In this document: one piece after another, positions 5,986 to 35,011 of the stretch
Layout: each line of letters starts with the position of its first letter
How positions within the stretch are numbered: the first letter of the stretch is position 1
Made by a program: the position numbers and the translations under genes
Assembly (NCBI GenBank): GCA_031082155.1
Contig: JAVHLL010000026.1
Location: 1 to 39,872, forward strand
Direction: 5' to 3'
DNA from: Thermodesulfovibrionales bacterium
Lineage (GTDB): Bacteria; Nitrospirota; Thermodesulfovibrionia; Thermodesulfovibrionales; SM23-35
DNA length: 39,872 nucleotides
The notes under the pieces: model-generated
Told to the model about the DNA's origin: nothing
Database searches by the model: none
Seen by the model: the letters and a program-made list of their open reading frames with translations, nothing else

Positions 5986-8121
5986 TCAGAAGATTTTTTT
6001 TGTGCTGATTGCGATGTTCCTCACTTCCTGTATCTTGTGAAGATGTTCGAGATATGAAGAGACTGTCTGGGGAGATTTCTGATAGTATGCAAGACGGTAA
6101 AGCGCCTTGGTGTGGTCGTTTTCGACATTGAATATTTCGAGATTCACGGTTTTGAAGACCGAAGACACCGCGTGCGTAATACCCGAGACGTCATCCGTTT
6201 CTATTCTCATATAAATCATGCCCTCTATCGGTCTTGTCTTCCTGAATTTGACCGAGAAGACCTTTTCCTCCGGGGCATCTGCGATCTTTTTGCAATTGCC
6301 GGTGTGAATGGCAAACCGGTTCTCCGCAAGAACCCCTTTGTGAGGGGAATTGTGCAGGGTAGGGACACAGTAGGGACAGGACAGGTAGTTGGTATCCAGG
6401 AAATCGAGTTCTATAGGCAGCCCTTTCTGGCGGGGTGAAAAAACATTCCATAGTTTACGGAAAGTCTCATCTTTCTTGCGGTGGAGGGAGAGTGTTTTAT
6501 TGTCGATCAGGTCCAGTTCAATCATCAGATCCTCTACTGCGTTCACCGCACGGAGGATACCCAGGACCTTCTCTTTTCTCTCCTTCTCCGCAGGATATGC
6601 TTCCCTGAGCTTTCTCCGGAATTCCTCCGGGTCTGCATGGAATGTGAAAAGATTCTTCTCGATATAGTCCTTGGCGATCTTGACGAGTGAATCTGTATAT
6701 GCATTTTCGAAGAACTTCTTCAGTATCCTCTGCGCCTTGGGTGTAACACATTTTGTAAGAAAATCCTCGGTTGCCGTAACGGTATTCTTTGTGTGCACAT
6801 GGACGATATTCCCGTTTGTCAATTCATGTCCCAGTACTGCCCGCACTCCGTCCACGATTCCATACTCTGCCCGTAATCCCAGCTCTGAATGTATCTTAAA
6901 CGCGAAGTCCAGAACTGTAGCGCCTTTCTTCAGTTCAACGGTAGTCTTCCCGTCCTTGGCAAAAACCTGAATGTCATCCTTCTCGATAAAAGAGATGAGC
7001 GTCCTTACATCCATGAAATTGCTTTCACTCGTCAGATATTCCTGGAGGTGCTCCATGAATTTTTTATTGAGGGCAGTATCCCTGCTGAAGCTGCCATACA
7101 CAAGAATGCCTTTCCTGTTGAACTCATTGAATCTGTCCGTGGCAATGAGGATGGGGATCTTCACCCCTTCTACCACAACGGTATAGAGAATACCCCTGAA
7201 ATTATTGAACCTCGGGACGGAAATATAATCCTCAATGGTGCCGGCAACCTTGTATTGTGTATTGACGAGCCAAAGCAATTTGTACGCATTCTCCACAGTA
7301 TCGACAACAAGCTTAAACAGGAGCACATGCGGGATATGCATGAACCTGTAATCGTTCATAGGGAGGAACGGTTTCCAATGGACCCTGATCTTCTTTATTC
7401 TCACATCGCTTTCGTGGCATTTGACCAGGATATTCATTTTGAACGTGTCGATTACCTGAGCGGCTTCTTCCTGTACCTCTTTCAGACGTGCGGAAAACAA
7501 GCTGAACATTTCAGGATGCAGGATGGGCGCACAAAGACCCTCGATTTCATTCGCGATATCCGTAAGACACAACCGGATGCAGAGCTTATGGTATATATCC
7601 ATGGATTCATTGGCGATTATGACCTGTTTTTCAGGTTTATGGTGGCTCAGGGTTTGGAGATTATGCAGTCTGTCGAAGATCTTGATATAGGCAATCCTCG
7701 GATTATTCACGGTATGAGAAAAAAATTTATCGTACGACTCTGCCTTGTGTTCCTTGATCTTTGTGAGGCCCTCTACAACCTCGGCAACTTCCTCGCCGAA
7801 AGTCGCTGCGATCTCTCTGCTGCTGACTTCACCGTCCTCGATGGCGTCGTGAAGCAGACAGCTGTCGATAGAGGTTTTGTCGACCATGCCGTTTTCTGCT
7901 GCGATAAGTGCTACATTGAGGGGATGAAATATATAGGGGTCGCCGTTTTTTCTCCACTGATTTTCATGGACCGCCGACGCATAGGAAGCGGTTCTTCTCA
8001 CTTCCTCGTATATTTCAGGATAGGTCCTGTACCCGGTGACTACATTCCGTATTTCATGCTCGGCGATGTTGAGTGCAATCTTCTCGACTAATTTTTTTTG
8101 CTGCCTGATGTGCTTATCCAT
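5986..8121 (-). CDS. RelA/SpoT homologue with intact hydrolase and degenerate synthetase
   Basis: This 711-residue protein has the full long-RSH layout: HD hydrolase (about 35-190), synthetase-like region (about 230-345), TGS (about 382-447), a Cys/His region (SCPYCVP, near 600) and a C-terminal ACT domain (about 635-711). The hydrolase keeps R57, H66, H91-D92, E95-D96 and the D150-R-L-H-N154 motif, so (p)ppGpp breakdown looks possible. The synthetase region keeps the EDYISVPRFNNFRG echo of the family's KDYI-x-PK-x-NGYQS, but the catalytic Asp aligns with H265 and the Glu of EIQIRT aligns with L325 (LIATDR). I infer that it cannot make (p)ppGpp. It would be a hydrolase-only SpoT-like paralogue, regulated through TGS and ACT. 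A second, canonical RSH elsewhere in the genome is expected. Confidence 0.85.
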   Translation of the reverse strand: MDKHIRQQKKLVEKIALNIAEHEIRNVVTGYRTYPEIYEEVRRTASYASAVHENQWRKNGDPYIFHPLNVALIAAENGMVDKTSIDSCLLHDAIEDGEVSSREIAATFGEEVAEVVEGLTKIKEHKAESYDKFFSHTVNNPRIAYIKIFDRLHNLQTLSHHKPEKQVIIANESMDIYHKLCIRLCLTDIANEIEGLCAPILHPEMFSLFSARLKEVQEEAAQVIDTFKMNILVKCHESDVRIKKIRVHWKPFLPMNDYRFMHIPHVLLFKLVVDTVENAYKLLWLVNTQYKVAGTIEDYISVPRFNNFRGILYTVVVEGVKIPILIATDRFNEFNRKGILVYGSFSRDTALNKKFMEHLQEYLTSESNFMDVRTLISFIEKDDIQVFAKDGKTTVELKKGATVLDFAFKIHSELGLRAEYGIVDGVRAVLGHELTNGNIVHVHTKNTVTATEDFLTKCVTPKAQRILKKFFENAYTDSLVKIAKDYIEKNLFTFHADPEEFRRKLREAYPAEKERKEKVLGILRAVNAVEDLMIELDLIDNKTLSLHRKKDETFRKLWNVFSPRQKGLPIELDFLDTNYLSCPYCVPTLHNSPHKGVLAENRFAIHTGNCKKIADAPEEKVFSVKFRKTRPIEGMIYMRIETDDVSGITHAVSSVFKTVNLEIFNVENDHTKALYRLAYYQKSPQTVSSYLEHLHKIQEVRNIAISTKKIF

Positions 8122-10391: not shown

Positions 10392-10420
10392 CCGACCATA
10401 TATGTGTCCGAAATAATTCA

Positions 10421-10593
10421 GCTAAGGGATATGACTCAATTTCTGAAGCGAGATCACGGGTAATCCTGATGAGGCTGAAGACGAAGCGGAAGTCTCACGT
10501 ATGAATTGAGTAAAAATATTATAGTCAGATAAAGGTATGTACAAAAACAAAGGTAGTTTATATCGCTTCAGAAATTGAGTCATATCCCTTAGC
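10421..10593. repeat. 173-bp element with perfect 31-bp terminal inverted repeats
   Basis: Positions 10421-10451 and 10563-10593 are perfect reverse complements over 31 bases. The left arm begins GCTAAGGGATATGACTCAAT. The 111-base interior has no plausible ORF. The element fills most of the gap between two convergent genes. The layout suits a MITE or a REPIN-like palindrome, and as RNA it would fold into a long hairpin. I see no clear target-site duplication at the edges and no large T-run after either arm, so a normal terminator is less likely. Confidence 0.7.
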
Positions 10594-33523: not shown

Positions 33524-34003
33524 TTACAACGAATCACAGTACCCCACTGTTTCTCCCACAATAGTCTGCGGCGTTATCATCCACTGCAGCGACCATATAC
33601 CTGATTCATTTCTCTTCAGACACACGACCCCTGCCATCTGAAAAGCAATGATATTCTTTTCTGCATCATCGCACAGGAGGAGGGAAGAGAGTCTGGCAAG
33701 ATGGGGGAGATGACCAACAAGAAACAGGTTGTCCGATAAACCGGTCAGCCTCTCTTTCCATATTGCCGGATTTTCAAGGGGTAACAGGCCATCTTTTTCC
33801 GATATTCCTTTCATCGGTTTGAGATACTTGCAGATTACTTCTGCTGTCTGTCGCGCCCGCAATTTCGTGCTGTGAATTATATCATCCACCCTGATATCAA
33901 GTTTGGAAAGGCAGGAAGCAACCCTTGTGATATCCATCAGCCCCTGTGAGGAGAGAGGTCTGGAAGGGTCTTCTTCTTCCCCTTTTGCTGCTCCGTGCTG
34001 CAC
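33524..34003 (-). CDS. sixA: SixA-type phosphohistidine phosphatase with a damaged 5' end
   Basis: A histidine-phosphatase-superfamily protein related to SixA, which removes phosphate from His-phosphorylated signalling proteins. QHGAAKGEEEDPSRPLSSQG holds the catalytic His (the family's RHG is here QHG), and STKLRARQTAEV supplies Arg, while FLVGHLPHLARLSSLLL holds the second His. The natural beginning should be Met-x-Leu-Tyr-Leu-Val, but an ATG at 34016-34018 with a perfect AAAGGAGG is followed at once by TAG (34013-34015). The frame then continues open. The coordinates given start at the first downstream GTG, which would drop the first beta strand. It is either a pseudogene, a reinitiation case or a recent mutation. 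Confidence 0.75.
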   Translation of the reverse strand: MQHGAAKGEEEDPSRPLSSQGLMDITRVASCLSKLDIRVDDIIHSTKLRARQTAEVICKYLKPMKGISEKDGLLPLENPAIWKERLTGLSDNLFLVGHLPHLARLSSLLLCDDAEKNIIAFQMAGVVCLKRNESGIWSLQWMITPQTIVGETVGYCDSL

Positions 34004-34032
34004 CAGATAAAGCTACATGGAAAACCTCCTTT
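34003..34032 (-). promoter_or_regulatory. Start-stop ATG-TAG with strong ribosome site before sixA
   Basis: Read on the minus strand: AAAGGAGG (34025-34032), a 6-base spacer, ATG (34016-34018), TAG (34013-34015), then CTT TAT CTG and GTG (34001-34003). The codons after TAG spell the expected SixA first strand Leu-Tyr-Leu-Val. A single base change from AAG (Lys) to TAG would explain it. A two-codon start-stop ORF followed by reinitiation at GTG 9 bases on is an alternative reading. Confidence 0.7.
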
Positions 34033-34072
34033 CTTTCACCCACGACATACCCAATATAGGAACACGATATTC

Positions 34073-35011
34073 CTATTCTCCCGCATGTCCGCTGACATGA
34101 ATCTGTAAACCTTCTTTTTTGTATCTGATGTATTCAACAAGACCGAGGAGGTTGCCTGCCGATATCGTAAGAAACCACGACAATGAAATTGCTGCTGCCG
34201 CATCGGGTTTTATCCCAATGAGTCCAAAAAAGAACACGAAAGTCCCTTCCCTGACCCCAAGCCCGGAGATGGAGATCGGGAGCATGGTAAAGAGAATGAT
34301 GAGGGGAAGGAATACGAGAAGCGAAAGAAAGGGGACATGCTGCCCAAGACCGAGGGCAAGAACATAGACAGCGAGAAAACCGGAAAATTGGACAACAACA
34401 GATAAGAGAAGTGCGTGTGCCATAGTATTCTTCTGGTTCCGGTATGCGTGAAAAGAGGTATAAAAGACCGAGAGCATCGGTATCCTGTTGCCAAGGCGAA
34501 GACCGAACATGAGAATACTCGCGATAAAAAAAGATGCTACAGCGGCAGGGAGGAGCCACACAATGTCAGCCCCCTGAAAATACGGATAGCCGAAAGGAAA
34601 AGCCAGTGCGCTTATGACAATCATTACAAACAAGCCGAGATACCTGTCCATAAAAACAGAGGCAAATGCGAGGGGCCCTTTCCCGGTAGCCTGATAGAGA
34701 TAATAACCTTTCACTGCATCTCCTCCAACCAGGCCAGGAAGAAAGGTGTTGAAGAACGACCCGATCATATAGAGCGAAAACAGTTTCCGCATTTTCATCT
34801 CTCCCGGGAGGAGAAGTTTCCAGCGCACGGTGGATATGAACTGAGCAAAGACATAAAGAGCTATTGCGAAGAAAAAAGCGGCAGGACTGAGATGTCTCAT
34901 TACAAGGAATACCCGATCGAGACCAGTCCTTGAGAGAACGAGATAGAGAAGTCCGGAGCTGATGCAGATTTTCAGTATGAGAAGTACGGCTTTATTTGCT
35001 TTCAGGGCCAA
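34073..35011 (-). CDS. UPF0104/flippase-like membrane protein (AglD/MprF-N type)
   Basis: A 312-residue inner-membrane protein with about eight helices, belonging to the lysylphosphatidylglycerol synthase transmembrane (UPF0104) family. Members include the flippase half of MprF and archaeal AglD. The recognisable core is LSPAAFFFAIALYVFAQFI, STVRWKLLLPG, then MIGSFFNTFLPGLVGGDAVK and SVFMDRYLGLFVMI. The GGDAVKGYYL and DRYLGL motifs are the family hallmarks. It overlaps the GT2 gene by 20 bases. With the neighbouring GT2 and PAP2-GT83 genes a role in moving or modifying a polyprenyl-linked sugar across the inner membrane is likely, but that is inference. Confidence 0.88.
   Translation of the reverse strand: MALKANKAVLLILKICISSGLLYLVLSRTGLDRVFLVMRHLSPAAFFFAIALYVFAQFISTVRWKLLLPGEMKMRKLFSLYMIGSFFNTFLPGLVGGDAVKGYYLYQATGKGPLAFASVFMDRYLGLFVMIVISALAFPFGYPYFQGADIVWLLPAAVASFFIASILMFGLRLGNRIPMLSVFYTSFHAYRNQKNTMAHALLLSVVVQFSGFLAVYVLALGLGQHVPFLSLLVFLPLIILFTMLPISISGLGVREGTFVFFFGLIGIKPDAAAAISLSWFLTISAGNLLGLVEYIRYKKEGLQIHVSGHAGE

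Follow-up and report, generated by a model that had tools for sequence, protein, structure and literature searches.

A nonsense codon at position 2 of an otherwise intact sixA gene in an uncultured member of the Thermodesulfovibrionales: most likely an ordinary recent one-letter mutation or an assembly error

The window, by which we mean the whole stretch of 39,872 nucleotides that was analysed, carries a gene for the signalling enzyme SixA, a phosphohistidine phosphatase, in which a TAG codon directly follows the start codon. Read on the minus strand from 34032 down to 33995, the sequence is AAAGGAGG-TTTTCC-ATG-TAG-CTT-TAT-CTG-GTG-CAG-CAC, and the run CTT-TAT-CTG-GTG-CAG-CAC-GGA, which follows the TAG from 34012, begins a frame of 162 codons that stays open as far as the terminal stop at 33526-33524. 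A preliminary description of this DNA had reported a ribosome site, six bases, ATG-TAG and a frame encoding Leu-Tyr-Leu-Val-Gln-His-Gly without stating the strand, and all of these are confirmed on the minus strand. Its further observations, that a nonsense codon occupies position 2 of a gene showing no other damage and that a GTG lies nine bases downstream, are likewise borne out (TAG at 34015-34013, followed by the 162 open codons; GTG at 34003-34001). The features of the locus are as follows.

33524..34018, minus strand: sixA, 164 codons plus stop, intact apart from codon 2
34025..34032, minus strand: Shine-Dalgarno sequence AAAGGAGG, 6 nt before the ATG; the congener has the identical site and spacing
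34019-34024, minus strand: TTTTCC spacer between AAAGGAGG and the ATG
34016..34018, minus strand: ATG, the conserved sixA start codon; homologous start codon in 26 of 26 aligned orthologues
34013..34015, minus strand: TAG, codon 2; TAT (Tyr) in the congener; of the 176 order genomes searched, the pattern is in this one alone
34001..34003, minus strand: GTG, codon 6 (Val), nine bases past the TAG; a mechanically listed 159-aa ORF opens here
34013..34048, minus strand: 11-codon ORF MSWVKERRFSM, opened by an in-frame upstream ATG and ending at the sixA TAG

The assignment of the gene to sixA, already made in the preliminary description, is upheld by an NCBIfam profile search in which the 162-residue frame scores 102.5 bits against TIGR00249 (SixA), above the cut-off of 74.5, with frame residues 1-148 aligned to profile positions 3-154. 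Pfam His_Phos_1 also matches the frame, weakly yet above its cut-off. The window frame also has the catalytic His8 and the Arg and His residues conserved in the histidine phosphatase superfamily: His8, Arg54 and His103 are invariant in 27 of 27 sequences, Arg20 is found in 25 of the 27, and all four are present here. The gene is single copy in the assembly. The frame is nevertheless not uninterrupted from its start codon, TAG standing at codon 2: the locus is a sixA gene by descent, and the making of SixA protein from it is doubtful. In Escherichia coli, SixA is described as dephosphorylating the phosphocarrier NPr (PMC6282199, PMC7948535), with nucleoside diphosphate kinase as another reported target (PMC12934123), and its catalytically inactive H8A mutant is reported not to complement (PMC6282199). 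An HPr/NPr domain (PF00381), the target of the E. coli enzyme, is not detectable in this whole genome, and one nucleoside diphosphate kinase (Ndk) gene is present. Because no PF00381 domain can be detected even though sixA is present in the lineage, it is suggested that SixA has a target other than NPr in this group. A search of 61 genomes left 32 in which the gene itself was not detected, and 3 of these are among the 19 other genomes of its genus and family. As about half of the relatives searched are without a detectable copy, sixA is dispensable in the order and its loss is tolerated.

The position of the start codon is fixed by comparison with relatives. The orthologue alignment comprised 26 sequences (L002-L026 and L032; L031, a second copy of the congener's sequence, is the same contig as L002 and no independent witness), all of which have a start codon at the homologous position, usually ATG and rarely GTG or TTG, and in most cases closely preceded by a Shine-Dalgarno-like site. 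On this alignment the ATG at 34016..34018 is the true sixA start. Codon 2, by comparison, varies freely among the aligned orthologues (Phe, Leu, Asn, Tyr, Arg, Ile) and is a stop in none of the 26. The start of the gene in the congener, a member of the same genus, reads ATG TAT CTT TAT CTG GTG CAG CAC, which is one base off the window across 24 bases; AAG had been put forward as the undamaged codon 2, and the TAT of this closest orthologue speaks against it. When the genomes of the order were searched more widely, the pattern ATG-TAG-(hydrophobic)-Tyr-Leu-x-x-His was found in one of 176, namely this one alone, and a looser pattern allowing any codon 2 gave matches in 71. Among the 45 SixA-like starts that were kept for inspection from these looser matches, residue 2 is most often Tyr (12 of 45), relatives have 11 different residues at this position, and the window has the sole stop. 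Two other ATG-stop matches of the loose pattern, G025:C11 and G113:C20, were rejected, since neither encodes a SixA start and both genomes have an intact SixA-like start elsewhere.

As a control, the bare combination of a strong Shine-Dalgarno sequence with ATG-TAG was counted and occurs only twice in the genome, which is background level. The single match other than sixA lies antisense inside what we take to be murE, and the idea of a start-stop arrangement repeated in the genome was discarded. Because homology in 26 orthologues fixes both the ATG and the frame, the ATG-TAG at sixA is, on that comparison, not a chance motif match. The arrangement is, as far as the genomes searched tell, private to this assembly and is not a conserved start-stop element. 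A comparison with orthologues had been proposed at the outset as the means of separating a mutation from a functional arrangement, and its outcome, a stop found in no relative, speaks for either an error or a mutation of recent date, and against a conserved functional arrangement.

The region upstream of the gene differs from that of the congener. Some 44-48 bases at about 34043-34086, immediately before the ribosome site of sixA, are missing from the congener and include a 9-bp hairpin, and with this leader indel the upstream flippase gene ends differently (HVSGHAGE in the window, DVTGHKN in the congener). This leader stretch has no second copy in the genome, and a repeated element was rejected as the source of the indel. 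Elsewhere in the window, a stretch of about 165 bases at 10405-10592 is an apparent dispersed repeat, with over a dozen matching places in the congener at 68-88% identity. The upstream ATG of the MSWVKERRFSM frame has no Shine-Dalgarno sequence and sits in the leader stretch that the congener lacks; that this frame ends at the sixA TAG is probably coincidence.

It had been proposed that ATG-TAG constitutes a functional start-stop mini-ORF, followed by reinitiation at the GTG of Val6, which would allow residual or regulated expression of a 159-aa SixA minus residues 1-5. The Shine-Dalgarno sequence, ATG and TAG are ideally placed for such an arrangement, the shortened protein would keep the catalytic His8, and constraint on sixA is not relaxed. 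Furthermore, the 9 nt between the stop and the GTG fall among the short intercistronic distances over which bacterial ribosomes can restart, and short-distance reinitiation is common in bacteria (reviewed in PMC5972666). The comparative evidence, however, makes this reading unlikely. Not only is the stop found in none of the 26 orthologues and the pattern in just one of the 176 genomes of the order, but codon 6 is GTG in just 12 of the 45 SixA starts (the window included) and elsewhere is GTC, GTT, GTA or an Ile or Met codon. Since relatives vary it among Val, Ile and Met codons, codon 6 is under protein-coding and not start-codon constraint, and the conservation in relatives of a start-stop together with a downstream start that would mark a functional element is not seen. 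The product would also lose Tyr4-Leu5, invariant in 27 of 27 sequences, as part of an N-terminal stretch that aligns gap-free from residue 1 with the structures 1UJB and 3F2I. A structure prediction made on the reading TAG=K with a 3-sequence alignment places a strand at residues 2-6, but with a pLDDT of 40 is too poor to use. Nor is there significant structure in the sixA leader RNA, which folds no better than its shuffles (z -0.28).

Trace expression by reinitiation is possible, and nothing points to an evolved device. The literature found on second-codon nonsense with reinitiation in bacteria consists of a general review alone (PMC5972666). It is highly improbable that ATG-TAG serves as a translational attenuator, throttling SixA so that a little shortened enzyme is made via the GTG or a little full-length enzyme via amber readthrough. 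A functional start-stop would, if true, matter as a translational control device; nothing here supports one. There is also a caution for annotation, as a mechanical ORF caller opens sixA at the GTG (34003) and so yields a falsely shortened SixA.

A further proposal was that the TAG is read through or recoded, a residue being inserted at position 2 to give full-length SixA. Low-level natural amber readthrough is general, and, given that position 2 tolerates as many as 11 different residues among relatives, almost any insertion would do. Against this, TAG is an ordinary terminal stop in the window, where the ends of 34 genes, taken as real, are TGA in 13 cases, TAG in 11 and TAA in 10. No PylS match above the cut-off was obtained in the genome, weak matches being found also in 13 of 14 control genomes. 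Of the 38 Rfam tRNA hits, 37 gave tRNA genes, none with a CUA anticodon, and the 38th, at 29 bits, has no ARAGORN call. The assembled tRNA set is itself incomplete (no Tyr or Ile tRNA is seen in it), which leaves a slight possibility of a suppressor encoded in a stretch missing from the assembly. With no PylS above the cut-off, no CUA tRNA called at these hits and no depletion of TAG as a stop, pyrrolysine or suppressor decoding of the sixA TAG was rejected, and readthrough in general, programmed or otherwise, is very unlikely to account for the codon.

The age of the stop can be gauged from the constraint on the rest of the gene. Between the window and the congener, sixA has a dS of 0.186 and a dN of 0.039 (dN/dS 0.208), the adjacent genes giving dN/dS values of 0.114 (beta-CASP) and 0.195 (flippase-like), and sixA contains no further nonsense codon or frameshift. 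Purifying selection thus acted on the gene until recently. Neutral evolution along the whole window branch would be expected to give a dN/dS near 0.6 and more stops or frameshifts, and neither is seen. Polarised amino-acid changes in sixA do fall more often on the window side (6-7) than on the congener side (2-3), but this skew is no evidence of relaxed constraint because the neighbouring flippase gene, taken as a control, is skewed in the same way (17 against 5). An old pseudogene in slow decay, for which the stop codon itself and a count of seven window-side derived changes against two on the congener side might be adduced, is therefore barely credible: dN/dS is 0.21 overall, frameshifts and a second stop are absent, and the skew is no stronger than that of the flippase neighbour. 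The original judgement that old decay is improbable accordingly stands. Normal constraint and the lack of other damage imply that the stop is either recent or not real, although both would also be expected were sixA still somehow expressed. In another part of the window, the relation is reversed for an intact 711-aa gene (5986-8121, minus strand), whose copy in the congener (G001) carries one in-frame stop.

Of the four options originally listed, the start-stop with reinitiation and the readthrough thus find no support, and the young pseudogene and the error are retained. Most likely, the codon is an ordinary one-letter mutation or an assembly error, with no special translation device. Between the two, we favour as probable that codon 2 of a single-copy and otherwise intact sixA has recently mutated to a stop, a change that would abolish or strongly reduce SixA. 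The main rival, which we consider appreciably less probable though a serious contender, is a consensus, sequencing or strain-mixture error, codon 2 being intact in the organism. The assembly is a draft of 2.65 Mb in 56 contigs with an estimated contamination of 2.12%, and the window is one whole contig; the TAG is one base from the congener's TAT, the rest of sixA is under normal constraint, and a consensus error would yield the same picture as a real nonsense change. On the other hand, the 34 window genes have no in-frame stop other than the sixA TAG in a total of 11,843 codons, a weak test in that the genes were picked as open frames. Moreover, in bacterial genomes a truly disrupted gene is commoner than a substitution error in a short-read consensus.

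We infer, then, that the nonsense change exists in the population and that it silences sixA. A single base change would have turned codon 2, Tyr TAT in the congener, into TAG, and very recently. A ribosome that loads at the strong Shine-Dalgarno sequence and starts from the conserved ATG would immediately encounter release factor, and little or no SixA would be made. Any residual product would be at most a trace, made by amber readthrough or by ribosomes weakly reinitiating at the GTG of Val6; in the latter case it would be without the N-terminal strand. If genuine, the change means that one lineage has recently lost a regulatory phosphatase that is dispensable.

By its profile match, the gene belongs to the same family as E. 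coli SixA (PDB 1UJB) and Alr0221 (PDB 3F2I), with which it shares a similar length and the same start site, and it differs from both in having TAG at codon 2. At the catalytic motif, positions 7-8 (33995-34000) are Gln-His in the window and in most SixA proteins of the order, whereas E. coli SixA has Arg-His. With known start-stop elements and termination-reinitiation systems (PMC5972666), the locus has in common an ATG with an immediate stop and a possible start nearby downstream; in contrast to them, neither the stop nor the downstream start is conserved here, and initiation at the latter would cut into the folded domain. The closer likeness is to strain-level nonsense mutations and young bacterial pseudogenes, which share with this sixA a single base change, an intact remainder, confinement to one genome and a dispensable gene, although here the stop lies at codon 2, directly after the start. 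The nonsense change in sixA is in this respect an ordinary event.
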